DNA of 64,000 nucleotides from Terriglobia bacterium. GTDB taxonomy: Bacteria > Acidobacteriota > Terriglobia > Bryobacterales > Bryobacteraceae. The DNA lies in assembly GCA_020073265.1 (NCBI GenBank), contig JAIQFN010000005.1, forward strand, positions 1 through 64,000, written 5' to 3'. The position numbers were made by a program, and so were the translations under genes. Positions 5,724 through 13,669 of the stretch are shown piece by piece (position 1 is the first letter of the stretch; the number at the start of each line of letters is the position of its first letter). Below the pieces are notes generated by a model. The model was not told the DNA's origin. It saw nothing but the letters and a program-made list of their open reading frames with translations, and did not search any database.

Positions 5724-6254
5724 TTACCTCCACGAATTCGGCTCCTGAGCCACTGGCACGGATGCGACACGCCAATACGATAATGCCAGTTTGATGACCC
5801 GTGCAACATCCCCGGCGCGAAGCGGCTTCGCCAGCACATCGTAGCCGCCGCTGCGGATCAACTCCTGGCACAGATATTCGTCCGCCACACCGGACACCAG
5901 GATCACGCAGGTCCGTTGCGGCGATAGCGCCAGGTTCTGAACGGCCGTTCGCCATTCCGCGCCGGGACAATCGCGATCAAACACGGCCACCGGCGCACTC
6001 AATCGATTGGTTGCGTCGCAAGCCTCTTCACACGATTTCGCAAAATGTACGTCCCACAGCTCCTGAGCGGAGATATCCGTCAGTACTTGCCGGTCCCCAT
6101 CGCCGATGACCAGCGCGACGATAGGAATGCGGCTCGGCGTGCCCGGTTGCCCGTCCGGCCGCGTGAGCAGGCGTGAGCCGTTGGAGCGTTCTCCCCGAAT
6201 CCGGCTTGGCAGGCTGGTGAAGAACGAATATATGGCTGGCCACATGGCGCGCAT
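5724..6254 (-). CDS. Receiver-like (CheY-fold) single-domain protein
   Basis: A 176-residue protein. Residues from about 45 on follow the response-regulator receiver fold: an acidic start (VIGDGDRQVL), a probable phospho-acceptor strand (APVAVFDRDCPG), a strand ending in Ser where receivers have Thr/Ser (VILVSG), and the conserved Lys-Pro (LAKPLR). No output domain follows, so it may act by protein contact. The first 40 residues are basic and unassigned; a start at the second Met (position 6245) is also possible. No histidine kinase gene is adjacent. Receiver fold likely, partner unknown. Confidence 0.72.
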   Translation of the reverse strand: MRAMWPAIYSFFTSLPSRIRGERSNGSRLLTRPDGQPGTPSRIPIVALVIGDGDRQVLTDISAQELWDVHFAKSCEEACDATNRLSAPVAVFDRDCPGAEWRTAVQNLALSPQRTCVILVSGVADEYLCQELIRSGGYDVLAKPLRAGDVARVIKLALSYWRVASVPVAQEPNSWR

Positions 6255-6403: not shown

Positions 6404-7471
6404 ATGTCCAGCCGCAGAGCGTTCTTCAAAGACGCCGCCAGCGCGGCTGGAATTGTTTCGTGCGGCTGTTGTTTCGCCGACGCGGCGCGGGCGTTTCAAC
6501 AGGCGGCCAGCACATCGCGCCGCCCGGTCACTCTGGGCGGCCGGCGAATCAAAGTGATCGATTTCCACGCCCATTGCGCCGTTCCGGAAGCCATGGCTCT
6601 GATGGGCCGCAAACCCTCCGCGCAAGATCCGCTGATCCTGGGCCCCGGCCGGCTGCGCGAGATGGACGAACAGCGCATCGATGTCGCGGCGCTCAGCATC
6701 AATCCCTACTGGTACGCCGCCGAGCGCGACCTGGCTGGCCGCATCATCCAACTCCAGAATGAAAAGCTGGCCGAGCTCTGCGCGGCCCATCCGGACCGCT
6801 TCGTGGCGTTCGCTTCCGTCGCGCTGCAGCATCCGGACCTGGCAGCCGCCCAGTTGGAGGAAGGCGTCAAGAAGTTGGGACTGCGGGGCGCCATGATCGG
6901 CGGCAGCGTGAATGGCGAAGAACTCTCGGCGCCCAGGTTCGAGCCGTTCTGGGCGAAGGCGGAGTCGCTCGGCGTGCCGGTCTTCATTCACCCTCAAGGC
7001 GTCCCGGAACTGCAGAAGCGCCTGGCGGGCAACGGCCTGCTGACTAACGTGATCGGCAATCCGCTGGAGACCACCATCGCGCTTTCGCATCTGATCTTCG
7101 ACGGCACGCTGGATCGCTTCCCCGCCCTCAAGATATGCGCGGCACACGGAGGCGGCTACCTGCCTTCCTACGCCGACCGGTCCGACCACGGTTGCCCGAC
7201 GTTTCCCTCCGCCTGCACCAAGACGCTCCAGAAACGACCCACCGAGTATCTGAAGCAGCTCTACTTCGACTCGCTGGTATTCACTGGGGAAGCCCTGCGG
7301 CACCTGGTGGCCCAATGCGGCGCGAGCCAGATCGTGCTGGGCAGCGACTGGCCGTATCCCTGGAACAGCACCTCCGTGGATCACGTCCTTGCCACTCCCA
7401 GCTTGAGCGACGCCGAACGCGAGGCGATCCTAAGCGGCAACGCCCGCAAACTGCTGCGAATCGACTCCTGA
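6404..7471 (+). CDS. Tat-exported amidohydrolase-family protein (ACMSD-like)
   Basis: A 355-residue metal-dependent hydrolase/decarboxylase of the amidohydrolase-2 (ACMSD-like) group. The chosen ATG gives MSSRRAFFKDAASAAG, a twin-arginine signal (SRRAFFK), so the enzyme should fold in the cytoplasm and be exported; an in-frame TTG at 6377 would only bury this signal. Metal-site motifs are visible: HxH in VIDFHAHC, the strand VFIHPQG, AAHGGGYLPSYADR, and the late Asp in VLGSDWPYPW. The family acts on carboxylated aromatic or muconate substrates; the substrate here is not evident. It stands alone between the receiver-like gene and the NusG-like gene. Confidence 0.87.
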   Translation: MSSRRAFFKDAASAAGIVSCGCCFADAARAFQQAASTSRRPVTLGGRRIKVIDFHAHCAVPEAMALMGRKPSAQDPLILGPGRLREMDEQRIDVAALSINPYWYAAERDLAGRIIQLQNEKLAELCAAHPDRFVAFASVALQHPDLAAAQLEEGVKKLGLRGAMIGGSVNGEELSAPRFEPFWAKAESLGVPVFIHPQGVPELQKRLAGNGLLTNVIGNPLETTIALSHLIFDGTLDRFPALKICAAHGGGYLPSYADRSDHGCPTFPSACTKTLQKRPTEYLKQLYFDSLVFTGEALRHLVAQCGASQIVLGSDWPYPWNSTSVDHVLATPSLSDAEREAILSGNARKLLRIDS

Positions 7472-7617
7472 GATCCGCTGCTGCAGATCGATGCTGCGCG
7501 GCTGCTGAACCAGTTCGCGGTCTGGGCGCCCGATCCGGCCGTTTCCGGACGAAAATACGGCTCGAAGCCCGGCCCGGCCGTACGGATTCTGAAACGGAAA
7601 GGTACTAGGACCCACAG

Positions 7618-7650
7618 CGTGTTGACAAATGTCAAATGTTCGGTCAACCT
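7618..7650 (+). promoter_or_regulatory. TTGAC operator, copy 1 (upstream of NusG-like gene)
   Basis: CGTGTTGACAAATGTCAAA, a 6-base spacer, then GTCAACCT. The first part contains the dyad TTGACA-AA-TGTCAA and the last part adds a further GTCAA half-site. The same 27 fixed bases with the same spacer length recur at 8433-8465. The site ends 24 bases before the NusG-like start codon. TTGACA resembles a -35 box but no -10 follows at 16-18 bases, so a regulator site is more likely. Confidence 0.7.
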
Positions 7651-7674
7651 GAAGAGGGTCGACGAGCTATCGTT

Positions 7675-8241
7675 ATGATTCCTGGGCAAACAGCCTCCCA
7701 TGTCGAGACAGACTGTGAAGCAACTTACCCATGGTTCGCTGTCCGAGTGCGATCCAACTTTGAGCGGACCGCGGAACTGCACTTGCGAGACCGCGGCTTC
7801 GAGCAGTTCGCGCCTTCCTACAAAAGCGAGCGAAAGTGGTCGGACCGTAAGAAAGAAGTCGATCAACTTCTTTTCCCGGGCTATGTCTTTTGCCGGCTGA
7901 ATCCGAACGACCGCCTTCCGGTACTATCGGTCCCCGGTGTGGTGGGCTTGGTGGGATTCGGCAAGGTTCCAGCGCCTATACCGGACCCAGAGATTGAGCG
8001 AATCCGCCGGATGGTCCAGTCCGGTTTGCTGGTGGGTCCCTGGCCATTCCTGGAAGTGGGCCAGACGGTCTTGATCGAGCGGGGACCGCTGGCCGGGATG
8101 GAAGGGATTCTGGTGGAGGAGAAAGGCAACTGGCGCCTGGTGGTTACCATCAACCTTCTAAAGCGATCCGTGTTCGCCCAGGTGGATCGGAACTGGGTGC
8201 GTCCGGTGGGATCGCAACCGAAAGCCAAGCGCGTTCTCTGA
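7675..8241 (+). CDS. NusG-like (UpxY/LoaP-type) transcription antitermination protein
   Basis: A 188-residue specialised NusG paralogue. The NGN domain starts YPWFAVRVRSNFERTAELHL and continues through FPGYVFCRL and VPGVVGLVGFG; the C-terminal KOW domain includes VGQTVLIERGPLAGMEG. Such paralogues usually sit at the head of polysaccharide clusters and help RNA polymerase through long operons, which fits the export gene starting 355 bases downstream. The ATG at 7675 was chosen because an earlier in-frame ATG (7636) falls inside the TTGAC operator. Its own Shine-Dalgarno is weak. The housekeeping nusG would sit with ribosomal genes, so this is a locus-specific copy (inference). Confidence 0.88.
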   Translation: MIPGQTASHVETDCEATYPWFAVRVRSNFERTAELHLRDRGFEQFAPSYKSERKWSDRKKEVDQLLFPGYVFCRLNPNDRLPVLSVPGVVGLVGFGKVPAPIPDPEIERIRRMVQSGLLVGPWPFLEVGQTVLIERGPLAGMEGILVEEKGNWRLVVTINLLKRSVFAQVDRNWVRPVGSQPKAKRVL

Positions 8242-8596
8242 CCCGAAATCAATCGCAGCTGGTTTTCAAGAAATGCTGGAATTCGGGGAAAATTCGGCGC
8301 CAGAAATGCAGAAATCATCCAGTGAAAGTGTCGGCGAGGGAACAATGCGCCGACGCATGCGCTGCGGCGGCATCTCGTATTGCCGAACCCATTCTGGCAG
8401 TACTAGTCCGGCAACGGTTCTAGAACGTTGAACGTGTTGACAAATGTCAAAAGATCCGTCAACCTATGGGAGTGTTCCAAAAGGGGACGTGCCGACTGCT
8501 TCCTTCCAGTTGAACGGACCTCTCCTTAGAGATCGCGGCGCCCGATCCAGGTTCCGCACGACCGGCGGCTAGAACGATCGATATTGAGAAGAAACC
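8242..8596 (+). other. Intergenic region with operator and long leader
   Basis: 355 bases without a gene. It holds a perfect 10-bp palindrome GTTCTAGAAC (8417-8426), the second TTGAC operator (8433-8465), and a leader of about 130 bases before the exporter start codon. A small hairpin CTCT-cctt-AGAG lies in the leader. The leader is a plausible target for the NusG-like protein, but no specific element was recognised. Confidence 0.5.
8433..8465 (+). promoter_or_regulatory. TTGAC operator, copy 2 (upstream of exporter operon)
   Basis: Identical to copy 1 in the 19-base block CGTGTTGACAAATGTCAAA and in GTCAACCT, with a different 6-base spacer of the same length. The retained spacing with a changed spacer sequence points to a protein-binding site rather than a chance duplicate. 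It lies 131 bases before the export gene. Confidence 0.7.
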
Positions 8597-9643
8597 ATGT
8601 TTCCTATTAGGCATTGGCAGTTCTTGGCTACTATTCTGTTCTCGGCGACTCTGGCGCTCCAGGCCCAGCCGCCTGCTCCGGGTGCGGGTCAGGCGGGTCA
8701 AAATCCAACGGCCAATCCGCAGGCCCAACCCCTGGGAGCCGGGCAGACCAGGGAACTGCCTCCGGGCGCGATTCGGCCCAACTACGTGCTCCGGCCGAAC
8801 GATCAGTTCCTGATGCGCACCAACGTGGAAGAGCTCAACGAAAAGCCGTTCCGCATCGACGCCGACGGCAATGTCAATTTGCCTTTGCTGAGCCGGGTGC
8901 ACGTGGGCGGCATGACGGTCGAGGAACTGGAGACGGACCTGGTGAAGCGGTTGCGGGACTTTTACAACGCGCCTCAGGTGATCATCAATATCACGCAGTT
9001 CAGCAGCGAACCGGTCTTCTTCATAGGGGCGTTCCGAGCGCCGGGAATCTACGGACTGCAGGGGGCCAGAACACTGCTTGAAATGTTGATTCAAGTGGGA
9101 GGCTTTCAACCCAATGCCGCCCGGCACCTCAAGATCACCCGCCGGGCCGAGTACGGTCCGATTCCCCTGCCTAACGCCATCGAGGATCCGGCCAAGAAGA
9201 TCAGCACGGTCGAAATCAGCCGCGGCAGTCTAACGGAGAACGTGAATCCGGCCGAAGACATACTTTTGCAACCTTATGATCAGATTTCGGTAGAGCGCGC
9301 CGAGGAACTGTATGTCACCGGAGAGGTGGCCAAGACCGGGCCCTTCGAACTGGGCGACCGGGAATCGATTTCGATCGCTCAGGCTATCACCATGGCCGGT
9401 GGAATGAGCCGGGACGCGCTGCGCAGCAAGGTCACGATCTTGCGGCCGGTCATGAACACCAGCCGGCGGGCGGCGATCCACGTGGACGTCAAGCGTATCT
9501 TCGAAGGAAAAGACAACGACGTGCCTTTGTTGCCGAACGATATACTCGTCGTTCCCCGATCGTACAGCGGGGTATTCTGGCGCACGTTCGCCTCGGTCGC
9601 AATTCCAATGCTTCCGTACGCGATATTCCTGGCCACCCAATGA
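8597..9643 (+). CDS. Polysaccharide export protein (Wza-type, SLBB domains)
   Basis: A 348-residue exported protein. After a signal peptide (TILFSATLALQAQ) and a Pro/Gly-rich linker it carries a poly_export domain (NYVLRPNDQFLMRT, then FRIDADGNVNLPLLSRVHV) and SLBB-type repeats (VFFIGAFRAPGIYGLQG; LYVTGEVAKTGPFELGD). The C-terminus has a hydrophobic stretch (FASVAIPMLPYAIFL). By family knowledge it forms a multimeric outer membrane channel for exopolysaccharide. It lacks the N-terminal lipobox Cys of E. coli Wza. A GAGAAG Shine-Dalgarno sits 5 bases before the ATG. It leads a four-gene operon and lies under TTGAC operator copy 2. Confidence 0.92.
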   Translation: MFPIRHWQFLATILFSATLALQAQPPAPGAGQAGQNPTANPQAQPLGAGQTRELPPGAIRPNYVLRPNDQFLMRTNVEELNEKPFRIDADGNVNLPLLSRVHVGGMTVEELETDLVKRLRDFYNAPQVIINITQFSSEPVFFIGAFRAPGIYGLQGARTLLEMLIQVGGFQPNAARHLKITRRAEYGPIPLPNAIEDPAKKISTVEISRGSLTENVNPAEDILLQPYDQISVERAEELYVTGEVAKTGPFELGDRESISIAQAITMAGGMSRDALRSKVTILRPVMNTSRRAAIHVDVKRIFEGKDNDVPLLPNDILVVPRSYSGVFWRTFASVAIPMLPYAIFLATQ

Positions 9644-10412: not shown

Positions 10413-11471
10413 ATGCGTAGCTCACTGCTGTGGCTCGTTGGAATCGCCTGCGGCGTCGCCGCTTCGGCGCAGCCCGTCGGTTTCGCCGGCCCGATTGAAA
10501 GCTATACCTTCGATCTGCCCACCGCCAGCCTGCGCGCCGTAGTCGGCTTTCCGGGCGCTGCGTCCTTCGGACCGGCCCTGCTGGATGGTCTCGATTTTGG
10601 CTCCGTCGCCCCGCATCAGGACTTTGCGATCGCGTTCCGCGGCGGCGACTGCCTGCTGGTTACCGGGCTGAGTTCCGGTCAGATTTCCACGGCTTCCATC
10701 TCGGGCGTGGCCAGACAACCGGATGCCATAGCCTGGTCCGGCGATGGCGCCTCCGCGATCCTGTACTCGCTGAGCGGCCACTGGATGCAGACCGTTTCCG
10801 GGCTTCCCGGCAACCCCAGCGCGGGTGCCTGGGTGGATCTATCGTACCTGGGCGGGCCGCTTTCGGCGGTGGCCATGGACGCTCAGGGAATGCAGGTTGC
10901 GGTGGCCGTCGGTGGCCATGCAGCCGGCGTCTACCTGTCGCCGGACGGCCGGTCTTTCAACTCCGTTCTACGGCTCGCGAATCCGGTGGCGCTGGCGTTC
11001 TCGATCGACGGAGCCAGCCTGTTTGCCTTGGACGCCTCCGCGCTCCAGCTCTCGGTGCTGAACCTGAGCAGTTTCGACCGCCAGACGATCCCACTGGACG
11101 GACTGGCCGATCCGTTTGCCGTTCGTCCCGTCCTGGACGCGGACGGCCGGAGATTGGCGTACGTCGCCAGCCGCAGCGACCGGTTGCTCCGCGAGTACGA
11201 CGTTTCCAGCCGGCAGGTGCTGGCGGAACTTCCGCTTTATTTCGTGCCGACCGGCATCGAGGTATTCGGGCGCGATAGTTTCCTGGTGGCTTCCCGCATG
11301 CGGCCCGCCGAGCCGGCCTGGCTTCTGACCAGCCAGCCCCAGCCTGCGGTTTATTTCGTCCCGGCGGTCTCGGACGGTTCGCAAGATCCAGTCTCACCAG
11401 GAACCGGACGTGGCAGCCAATCCCCGTCGTTACCGCGGTCTATGTCGACTCGGGAGGGCCGGATTCGATGA
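10413..11471 (+). CDS. Secreted beta-propeller-like protein
   Basis: A 352-residue exported protein (signal LLWLVGIACGVAASAQP). The remainder is made of repeating units such as VARQPDAIAWSGDGASAIL, LANPVALAFSIDGASLFAL and VLDADGRRLAYVASRSD, the pattern of WD40/lactonase-like beta-propellers. No catalytic residues were recognised. The ATG at 10413 starts the signal peptide; it follows the previous stop closely, and the reading frame ends in an ATGA overlap with the next gene, so the genes are translationally coupled. Its job beside a polysaccharide exporter is unknown; binding or scaffolding at the surface is a guess. Confidence 0.75.
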   Translation: MRSSLLWLVGIACGVAASAQPVGFAGPIESYTFDLPTASLRAVVGFPGAASFGPALLDGLDFGSVAPHQDFAIAFRGGDCLLVTGLSSGQISTASISGVARQPDAIAWSGDGASAILYSLSGHWMQTVSGLPGNPSAGAWVDLSYLGGPLSAVAMDAQGMQVAVAVGGHAAGVYLSPDGRSFNSVLRLANPVALAFSIDGASLFALDASALQLSVLNLSSFDRQTIPLDGLADPFAVRPVLDADGRRLAYVASRSDRLLREYDVSSRQVLAELPLYFVPTGIEVFGRDSFLVASRMRPAEPAWLLTSQPQPAVYFVPAVSDGSQDPVSPGTGRGSQSPSLPRSMSTREGRIR

Positions 11472-13669
11472 CCCGCAGCTTCCTGGCCCGCGCTGTTGCG
11501 CTGCTGGCTTTGACGGCCGGACTCGCGGCCGCTCAGCAATTCCCCTTTCAACTCCTGGTTACGTCCGGCGCCAATGTGATCAGCGTCGCCAACGGCACCA
11601 CCCTGCCGTTCAACATCGAAGTCGGCCAGTCGCAGAGCTTCAGTGTCAAAGCGACTTACATTGGCACCTCGCAGGCCACCATCACGCTGCCGCCGCAACT
11701 GCTCGGCGCGGTGACCTTTACCGTGAGCTTCAAGGATACTTTGCCGCTGGTTCTCAACCGCGGCGACAGCACGTCTTTCGACATCGCGTACAGGCCAACC
11801 AGCGCCAGCGCGGCCAGCGCACAGCTCACCATTTTCTTCACCGAACCGGTAGCTTCGACAACCGGAGGGACCCCGACCACCTCGCAGAATTCGATCCTGC
11901 TGTCGCTGCAGGGCACCAGCCCTTCGTTCCAGTTGAGCTATTTCCTGCAGGCCACTCCGAACGTGGTGCCGCTCGCATCCGGCGGCTCGATCCTCTTTCC
12001 GGGCACGCAGACCAACACCACCGCCCTGACTAGCTTGAACACCAGCAACCTGGGTAGCGGCGCCGGCACCATCAAGAGCATCACGCCTCCGGCGGGTCCC
12101 GCATTCAAGCTGACCGGCCTGCCTCTTCTCCCGGCCACGCTAGCGGCTGGCAATACGCTGCAATTGCAGGTCTCCTACAATCCCACGGCGGTTGGCACGG
12201 ACAACGATCAAGTGCAAATCACGCTGGCTTCCGGCACCGTGCTCACGGTGAACTTGAGCGGCAGCGGCATCTCCGCCACGTTCACTTATCAATTGCTGCA
12301 GGGAGATACGCCTACACCGGTTACGCCGCCGGGACCCATCACGCTGCCCGACACCAATCTTGGCGACACCAGCAGCCTGATTGTTCGCGTGCAAAACGTG
12401 GGGAACGCGGATGGAGCCGTCAATGCCGCGGCCCTGGCGGGTCTGGGATTCTCGCTCAGCGATACGCCGCTGTTCCCGCAGACGCTGAAGCCCAGCGACA
12501 GCTTCACCTTCACCATCAACTTCGCGCCCACCCAGCCCGGAGCTCAAAAGGGACAGTTGGTGATCGGCAAGGACCTGTTCACTGTGACCGGAAACGGCCT
12601 GGGCCCCAAGCTGGCCTTCTCCTATGTTTCGGGGGCCGGCAGCATCGACGTGAGCGCCACCGGCGCCGTGGTCTTCGGCCCGATCATCGTCACGCAGTCC
12701 GAACAGGTGACCTTCGTGATCACCAACAAGGGCACGCTGCCAGCCAAGGTTTCCAACATCGGAATCGGGGAATCCAAGAGCCCGTTTTCAGTTTCCGGGC
12801 TGCCGGCCTTCCCGGTCAGCTTGGATCCCGGCGGAACGACTCAGTTCGTCATCAAGTTCGCGCCGCTTACCACCGGTTTTTTGAATGGAACGCTGCGGGT
12901 GGATACCACCATCATCGTCGTAACGGGATCGGGCAACGAGCCGCCCCCGCTGCCGACGTATACGATTCAGGGCCCCACCGGCAATGTCGCCCCGCAGACG
13001 CAGCCGGCCGTGAGCCTGAAGCTGGCGAGCGCTTATCCGGTAGCCCTGGTTGGAACGCTGACCTTGACCACCAGCAGCACCCAGGTGAGCGATCCGGCGG
13101 TTCAATTCTCGACCGGCGGCCGCGTGGTCCCCTTCCTCATTCCGGCCAACAGCACCGACGCTAATTTCGGGGGACTGGGACCACAGATCTTCCTGCAGAC
13201 CGGAACCGTGGCAACCAGCATCATTTTGACGCCGGCTTTCCTGACGCAGGACGGAGGTCTCGACATTACGCCGACCAACCCAGCCACGCTGCAGTTCACC
13301 GTTCCATCAGCCGCGCCCACTCTGCTGGCAGTTCAGGTGACTGGTGCGACCACCAACGGCTTCACGGTTAGCGTGTTCGGGTATTCCACCACTAGAAGCG
13401 TGAACTCTATGACTCTCCAGTTCACCCCCGCCACGGGATTCAACTTCTCCGCTTCGCAGGTCACAGTCGACCTTAAGCAGGCCTCCGCGGCGTGGTTCCA
13501 GAGTTCCACGTCCACGTCCTTTGGCGGGCAGTTCACCGTAGCGGTCCCGTTCACCCTGCAAGGTACGGTGGCAACCAACCAGACGCTCTTGCAGGCCATC
13601 GCCTCGGTCTCCGCGACCGTCAGCAATGACCAGGGCACGTCGAACTCAGTGCAGCAGAAGCTGCAGTAG
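11468..13669 (+). CDS. Large secreted protein with ASH/choice-of-anchor-D type Ig repeats
   Basis: A 733-residue exported protein (signal AVALLALTAGLAAAQ). It has at least four Ig-like units of the ASPM-SPD2-Hydin/choice-of-anchor-D kind, each with a phrase like VSYNPTAVGTDNDQVQITL or INFAPTQPGAQKGQLVIG followed by VTGNGLG or NLSGSGI. The last 230 residues form a different beta-rich region (FTVSVFGYSTTRSVNSMTLQF). No membrane anchor, LPXTG or PEP-CTERM tail is present. It is the last gene of the exporter operon. A stalk or matrix role is inferred from the repeat architecture only. Confidence 0.8.
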   Translation: MTRSFLARAVALLALTAGLAAAQQFPFQLLVTSGANVISVANGTTLPFNIEVGQSQSFSVKATYIGTSQATITLPPQLLGAVTFTVSFKDTLPLVLNRGDSTSFDIAYRPTSASAASAQLTIFFTEPVASTTGGTPTTSQNSILLSLQGTSPSFQLSYFLQATPNVVPLASGGSILFPGTQTNTTALTSLNTSNLGSGAGTIKSITPPAGPAFKLTGLPLLPATLAAGNTLQLQVSYNPTAVGTDNDQVQITLASGTVLTVNLSGSGISATFTYQLLQGDTPTPVTPPGPITLPDTNLGDTSSLIVRVQNVGNADGAVNAAALAGLGFSLSDTPLFPQTLKPSDSFTFTINFAPTQPGAQKGQLVIGKDLFTVTGNGLGPKLAFSYVSGAGSIDVSATGAVVFGPIIVTQSEQVTFVITNKGTLPAKVSNIGIGESKSPFSVSGLPAFPVSLDPGGTTQFVIKFAPLTTGFLNGTLRVDTTIIVVTGSGNEPPPLPTYTIQGPTGNVAPQTQPAVSLKLASAYPVALVGTLTLTTSSTQVSDPAVQFSTGGRVVPFLIPANSTDANFGGLGPQIFLQTGTVATSIILTPAFLTQDGGLDITPTNPATLQFTVPSAAPTLLAVQVTGATTNGFTVSVFGYSTTRSVNSMTLQFTPATGFNFSASQVTVDLKQASAAWFQSSTSTSFGGQFTVAVPFTLQGTVATNQTLLQAIASVSATVSNDQGTSNSVQQKLQ

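Follow-up and report, generated by a model that had tools for sequence, protein, structure and literature searches.

Why does the same short stretch of DNA stand in front of two neighbouring genes of a polysaccharide cluster, one for a NusG-like protein and one for an outer-membrane exporter? We met this question in a Terriglobia bacterium (Acidobacteriota; Bryobacteraceae), in a stretch of 64,000 nucleotides of contig JAIQFN010000005.1 (C49 in our numbering), which was analysed as a whole and is called the window in the following. A first-pass annotation had taken the two copies as operators through which one regulator of the FleQ type switches on both the exporter operon and its antiterminator. 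Among the papers listed in our literature searches there was none on the control of matrix production in Acidobacteriota.

Results and Discussion

The repeat is present as the annotation had described it. Two 33-mers lie at 7618-7650 and 8433-8465 and agree in all 27 of their non-spacer bases. With up to 3 mismatches allowed they are the only two matches to the repeat in the window, and 100 dinucleotide shuffles gave none. In the whole genome (6,410,776 bases on 131 contigs) the 20-base core was found twice at up to 3 mismatches, again as the window pair, with no match in the reversed control; the core is thus rare in 6.41 Mb and not scattered over many random places, which the annotation had named as the outcome that would speak against its proposal. 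The likeness of the copies extends beyond the 33 bases, as a block GGTwCTAGrAC is common to both (7601-7611 and 8416-8426). Over 7601-7650 the copies are 80% identical with the spacers counted, and the flanking 50 bases on each side show 32% and 16% identity. Identity is limited to the GTACTAG block, the -35/dyad block and the -10 block, and the spacers between them have drifted at equal length. The distance from the end of the copy to the start codon is 25 bases for copy 1 and the NusG-like gene (ATG at 7675) and 132 bases for copy 2 and the SLBB/Poly_export gene (ATG at 8597), so that the placement given in the annotation is also correct.

The gene at 7675-8241 (plus strand; Pfam NusG, E 2.5e-19) belongs to the UpxY type of antiterminators, as its product reaches 107.5 bits with NF033644 (cut-off 100) and stays below the cut-offs for RfaH (TIGR01955, 82.5 vs 144.5), LoaP (55.2 vs 125) and NusG (41.6 vs 135.7). 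The search for NusG domains in the genome gave two genes, the one in the window and another on contig C93 whose frame reads as a NusG-like protein, and the window UpxY is the only NusG paralog that we found there. It heads a polysaccharide cluster with the SLBB exporter and glycosyltransferases behind it. The gene for the outer-membrane polysaccharide export protein (8597-9643, plus strand; Poly_export E 7.4e-17, SLBB_2 E 8.7e-11) is the first of the exopolysaccharide (EPS) genes, and those behind it encode Hydin-type Ig, TPR, glycosyltransferase, ABC-2 and epimerase domains. Within the cluster, 11468-13669 encodes a protein of 733 amino acids with several Ig-like domains of the ASPM-SPD-2-Hydin type. 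Upstream of the cluster a small receiver-domain-like protein is encoded on the minus strand (5724-6254; Response_reg E 1.7e-5, 25.4 bits, cut-off 30.2).

To judge the nature of the repeat we used the regions upstream of 90 UpxY genes among the matches listed, with up to 800 bp each; these rows are related, some genomes contribute more than one of them and for L026 the upstream sequence is only about 30 bp long. TTGACA was found 35 times in sense and 15 times in antisense orientation, the latter including palindromic dyads, and 10 times in the reversed sequences. It is followed by nnTGT in 13 of the 35, 6 of the 15 and none of the 10 cases, respectively. Of the sense sites, 24 lie no more than 300 bp from UpxY, and at these a hexamer NANNNT (A2, T6) follows with a spacer of 17 in 14 and of 18 in 5 cases, and with every other spacer from 8 to 33 in at most 4, which owing to the related rows is support rather than a probability. 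Because of this comparative spacing the repeat reads as a duplicated promoter of the sigma-70 type on the plus strand, with TTGACA as putative -35 (7622-7627 and 8437-8442) and the last GTCAA(CCT) as putative -10 region 17 bp downstream (CAACCT; 7645-7650 and 8460-8465). The annotation had described a TTGACA/TGTCAA dyad with an extra GTCAA. Both are there, and the dyad TTGACAAATGTCAA (7622-7635 and 8437-8450), whose inverted half TGTCAA falls into the spacer, overlaps the -35 and the spacer; the idea of the GTCAA as a third half-site in a triple operator was given up, as the spacing would make it the -10 region. The -10 hexamers of the window are weak (2/6) and a standard sigma-70 scan of the two copies called no promoter, which fits regulated promoters and is also a fair objection to the promoter reading. 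By eye, the 25 bases that separate copy 1 from its gene show no sigma-54 elements, -24 (GG) and -12 (GC), and the -35/-10 spacing fits.

Further upstream promoter 1 carries one GTACTAG box (GGTACTAGGAC, 7601-7611, about 20 bp before the -35), and promoter 2 carries two GTACTAG-like boxes 17 bp apart (AGTACTAG, 8399-8406, and GGTTCTAGAAC, 8416-8426, together spanning 8399-8426). The consensus of 13 aligned sites is AGTACTAGnAC. The order GTACY..TTGACA occurs in 11 of the 90 UpxY upstream regions, with 2 cases on the opposite strand and none in the reversed sequences. Across whole loci GTACY-N8-32-TTGAC is not enriched (30 vs 45 in the reversed control), nor is GTACT-N9-39-TTGACA across the genome (25 vs 26 in the control), the excess being confined to the regions upstream of UpxY. 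As far as can be judged from sequence, the box is a better candidate for an activator site than the dyad.

Searched as TTGACAnnTGTCAA at up to 1 mismatch, the dyad occurs at 5 distinct sites of the genome, namely the window pair, two sites on contig C91 and one on C43, and twice in the reversed control. The C91 dyads are 42 bp apart and precede an open reading frame for a ribbon-helix-helix (RHH)-like protein, which is followed by a Wzc-type autokinase, the exosortase EpsH, DUF3485 and glycosyltransferases. This site upstream of the exosortase operon keeps the layout of the window promoters and is the third place of the module in the genome. A sequence-only model, R1, was built from 11 of the 13 aligned sites picked by eye, leaving out L040:2935 and L042:16052, which have no dyad; it returned 3 sites in the genome (150 of 632 candidates scored), the window pair and C91, all of them training sites. 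A second dyad lies exactly 42 bp downstream of the first in L005 (the C91 locus of this genome), L164 and L170, and 22 bp downstream in L165, and each window copy has one dyad. These distances correspond to about 4 and 2 turns of DNA, and the pairs look like paired dimer sites on one face of the DNA. Since the dyad sits on the -35 and the spacer and a second dyad lies further downstream in the exosortase promoters, it looks more like the site of a repressor, and we consider repression the probable sign of control. Of the claim that one regulator switches on exporter operon and antiterminator, the co-regulation is supported and the activation is not. In two genomes a gene for a protein of about 300 amino acids with tandem Cys-containing repeats (RRN...C..G...CDP..L) lies divergent from the exosortase promoter (L005:2268-3167 and L121:6879-7790, both minus strand); at C91 this Cys-rich protein was considered as a regulator and dropped, having no confident family match.

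The open reading frame behind the C91 site encodes 115 amino acids from a GTG start, with an RHH-like beginning and a helical tail. In the alignment of RHH proteins 6 of 10 members match the Pfam family NikA-like (best E 7e-5), 4 match DUF6290 (8e-4) and 4 match RHH_1 (0.006), with the C91 protein itself reaching 12.4 bits for NikA-like (cut-off 27). Its predicted structure has a mean pLDDT of 72.5 and shows no strand in DSSP. Foldseek gave NikR as best match (E about 1), VIA-align gave ParD (Z 4.1, rmsd 6.9 over 74 residues), and a PDB sequence search with the RHH profile had mainly coiled-coil chains among its top matches. From its sequence the C91 product is probably a ribbon-helix-helix protein, which is a weak assignment. 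The genome has one RHH gene of the strand type VYFR(V/I)SE, and this is the gene on C91. In the RHH open reading frames that we compared, TTGACAnnTGT lies upstream of 9 of the 9 with this strand type and of 0 of the 10 others, among which L175 lacks a strand within the matched part and for two at most 605 bp of upstream sequence is available. If the three loci that were found only via the dyad or R1 are left out, the numbers are 6/6 vs 0/10, corresponding to 1.2e-4 if the rows were independent, but the rows share ancestry. The pairing of RHH type and dyad is our best lead to the protein that may bind the dyad, and that this protein is the one encoded on C91 is a tentative proposal, which we would rather doubt than assert. 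AmrZ is said to be an RHH regulator of EPS and c-di-GMP genes in Pseudomonas; it resembles the proposed regulator as an RHH protein controlling exopolysaccharide operons, and it is likened by this role alone, binding sites aside.

A different protein might occupy the same dyad, and a winged-helix repressor of the CopY/BlaI/MecI type would leave the co-regulation of the promoters unchanged. PMC7253601 describes operators of CopY and BlaI in pairs and a refined CopR-CopY operator, RNYKACANNTGTMRNY; the core of our dyad fits the KACAnnTGTM within it. An inverted repeat ACA-nn-TGT, often paired, is common to both systems, and their target genes differ. In a comparison with the full RNYKACANNTGTMRNY the core fits both window copies and the last Y is an A in both. 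Such a repressor is nevertheless unlikely, since no gene of this type was among 50 Pfam-scanned proteins from a few loci and since it is the RHH strand type that tracks the dyad.

The RHH protein stays our candidate for the dyad, and we turn to the occurrence of the promoter in relatives. UpxY/NusG homologs are present in 141 of 150 genomes of the family, and upstream of UpxY homologs a wider layout is found, with a GTACT/GTACC box, about 20 bp, TTGACA, about 17 bp and a -10-like hexamer. With up to two mismatches allowed, the 20-base core itself was found in 3 of 61 genomes, which are the genome under study and G001 and G002 from the same genus, and in each of these two it precedes the UpxY ortholog. 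Among the 11 closest UpxY orthologs in the matches listed (at least 63% identity, own included) TTGACA lies within 260 bp upstream in 7, and it was not found at this distance in the other 4 (L009, L015, L016 and L017). Model R1, with 46 candidates scored per genome, gave 44 places in 34 of 121 family genomes at E of at most 1; 11 of them had E below 0.01, of which 8 are training sites, and the other 33 had E above 0.01. The non-training places below 0.01 are one in G004 (contig C81), again from the genus of the window, before RHH, Wzc and EpsH genes, and two in G090 (contig C356), at 34265 before RHH and UpxY genes and at 13617 on the same contig. A strict pattern, GTACTNG-N12-20-TTGACANNTGT, matched 6 of 237 family genomes at one place each and the control gave 5. 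In G000, G001, G002 and G004 this place is before UpxY, in G217 it is before UpxY and RHH genes with an exosortase gene divergent, and in G090 it is on the UpxY contig, which also carries a DegT aminotransferase. All six places are on EPS-type loci, and as their number is hardly more than in the control it is the places alone that speak for the pattern, G090 and G217 being the sole genomes independent of its design. Rfam gave nothing at gathering scores on 20 loci. These sequences are best read as a sign that antiterminator and exporter are co-regulated, because the module is rare in the genome, goes with exopolysaccharide genes and is retained at several of the orthologous UpxY loci.

The relatives do not bear out all of the module to the same degree, as the annotation, which had named loss at orthologous loci as evidence against it, is supported at several UpxY loci and not for copy 2. 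In G001 and G002 the exporter gene follows UpxY, and no second copy was found between the two genes. Copy 2 therefore looks like a gain in the window lineage, and its absence in G001 and G002 counts against a conserved link to the exporter. One could take copy 2 as promoter DNA that was duplicated locally and recently and means nothing for regulation, and indeed the window copies resemble each other more than either resembles the sites in G001 and G002, and G090 also has two similar promoter-leader copies at a distance of 20 kb. A mere duplication is nevertheless very unlikely in our view, since identity is confined to the three blocks named above, between which the spacers have drifted at unchanged length as if under selection, since both copies head genes and since the C91 site keeps the layout.

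Even less can be said for an NtrC-type enhancer-binding protein of the FleQ/PrsR kind, which would bind TTGAC/GTCAA half-sites and activate both operons and which we regard as improbable. It is favoured by a histidine kinase and an NtrC-type response regulator encoded just upstream of UpxY in G145 and G028, and by PrsR and sigma-54 having been proposed for PEP-CTERM genes in Proteobacteria (Haft 2006, PMC1569441). The PrsK/PrsR regulon resembles our locus in a shared cis element before EPS/exosortase-associated genes and in two-component genes near EPS loci; its element, according to that paper common to Proteobacteria only, combines an activator site with -24/-12, whereas here TTGACA and a -10 with an overlapping dyad stand before the UpxY, exporter and exosortase operons. 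FleQ boxes of Pseudomonas EPS promoters, given as GTCAAT-N2-ATTGAC in PMC10723142, have the same half-sites in the inverse arrangement, as here TTGAC comes first and GTCAA second, and the FleQ-type regulator of the annotation is for this reason a poor candidate. Moreover, the response regulators of L040 and L042 reach 350.4 and 323.3 bits with PrsR (TIGR02915), whose cut-off is 502.6, the nearest match to the L040 protein in our genome has 43% identity to it, and all 17 matches that include the AAA+ part are on contigs other than C49. Receiver-only matches to the L040 protein do occur on C49, at 5748-6062 and 125432-125821. The TTGACA at L040 and L042 is without a dyad, and the spacing in the window fits -35/-10. 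The kinase/regulator pairs are located at L040:2935-6093 and L042:13120-16052, with GTACY..TTGACA before the kinase gene (L040:2935 and L042:16052). That TTGACA-nn-TGT is the favoured core promoter of this family and no operator would agree with its directional and -10-spaced occurrence, but is just as improbable, as four loci have a second dyad 42 or 22 bp further downstream and its 5 sites within 1 mismatch in 6.4 Mb are far fewer than promoters.

Beside the promoters, their leaders deserve attention. In E. coli RfaH is recruited by the 12-base ops element GGCGGTAGCGTG (PMC5995543), and the recruitment modes of operon-encoded NusG paralogs are stated as unknown in PMC7593976. Downstream of several of the promoters described here we found GGGACnnAAAGGGCGGTAGCnTG, which contains the 12-base ops; the n is a G in the E. 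coli element. The form GGCGG(T/C/G)AGCnTG is present in 27 of the 90 UpxY upstream regions in sense and in 1 in antisense orientation, in none of the reversed sequences and in 0.15 in shuffles; without the match in L008, which falls into an amidohydrolase coding region, it is present in 26 of 90, of which 21 are exact (T) and 5 have one base changed (C or G). As GGCGGTAGCnTG the element precedes UpxY genes and in the C91 leader also the exosortase operon (L005:3366, equal to C91:72365), and it is often preceded by GGGACnnAAAG. A conserved RNA hairpin around ops, suggested by GGGAC...GTCCC ends, was dropped, as many members are unpaired. In G090 two similar copies of promoter and leader on one contig (L123:7266-7309 and L122:5618-5660, both minus strand; 148 of 204 aligned columns identical, 21 with gaps) are each followed by a variant element GGCCGAAGGCTGCC instead of ops, which is another promoter duplication. 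The extended form of ops was found in 15 stretches of GTDB genome contigs, 14 from Acidobacteriota and one from Hymenobacter, a search that is uninformative on ops elsewhere as its pattern was derived from the family of the window. Downstream of it a homolog of UpxY, RHH, Wzc, EpsH or SLBB is encoded in 12 of the 14 Acidobacteriota, the other two being L168 and L174.

The genome under study has a perfect ops in the C91 leader (C91:72374). A second perfect match, C57:42719, is inside long open frames on both strands and was taken as chance. Ops alone shows no enrichment either in the genome (39 matches with at most one mismatch vs 83 in the reversed control) or in the window (23 at up to 2 mismatches vs 27.6 expected), where two matches with 1 mismatch, at 6899 in the amidohydrolase gene and at 11683 on the minus strand, were likewise taken as chance. 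In the leader of the exporter operon (8466-8596, plus strand) no ops was found, the best match having 5 mismatches and being no better than in shuffled sequence. The ops-contacting residues K10, H20, R23 and R73 of RfaH correspond to R, H, D and P in the window UpxY, and by alignment position K10 is kept in 5 and R73 in 0 of 8 ops-bearing relatives (L019 with a 1-base variant). Compared with RfaH and ops as described in PMC5995543 and PMC7593976, the locus is alike in having a NusG paralog beside a polysaccharide operon and a leader element equal to ops at C91 and in some relatives; it differs in that the protein is UpxY by its model, few of the contact residues are retained and the exporter leader of the window has no ops. 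Our literature search returned no paper joining the ops element, RfaH and Acidobacteria. That UpxY acts in trans on the ops-bearing C91 operon has in our view a nearly even chance, with a slight lean against it.

Conclusion

We propose as the probable explanation that twin promoters of the sigma-70 type with a shared operator co-control UpxY, the SLBB exporter with its EPS genes and the exosortase operon on C91, with the RHH protein as candidate repressor. Comparison of the sequences supports the twin modules, the third site, the -35/-10 spacing and the recurrence at EPS loci of relatives. Each promoter would consist of a perfect -35 TTGACA, a 17-bp spacer and the weak -10 CAACCT, with a symmetric operator TTGACA-nn-TGTCAA across -35 and spacer and one or two GTACTAG boxes about 20 bp or more upstream of the -35. 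Promoter 1 would drive the UpxY-family antiterminator and promoter 2 the exporter and the EPS genes after it, and, with the same promoter also found ahead of the exosortase operon, all three units are most likely under the joint control of one dyad-binding protein. The small RHH protein, first in the C91 operon, would repress by blocking the -35, while a separate activator may act at the GTACTAG boxes; the RHH gene is probably autoregulated, because it comes first behind its own site. UpxY in turn could serve the C91 operon through its ops.

Duplicated EPS promoters and UpxY/ops antitermination are kinds already known, of which we see a variant here, and among the papers listed in our literature searches none was on this dyad at EPS genes or on ops in Acidobacteriota. 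A more far-reaching version, in which ops-dependent, RfaH-like antitermination is combined with an EPS-specific promoter code, so that an RHH repressor and UpxY from two loci cross-control operons via TTGACA-nn-TGTCAA and an ops read through residues other than those of RfaH, appears rather doubtful to us. The presence of ops before UpxY genes bears on the question of how NusG paralogs are recruited, stated as open in PMC7593976. For this bacterium the analysis offers a concrete regulon that can be put to the test. It would comprise UpxY, the exporter and the exosortase operon and comes with a promoter code, a candidate regulator and one NusG paralog.
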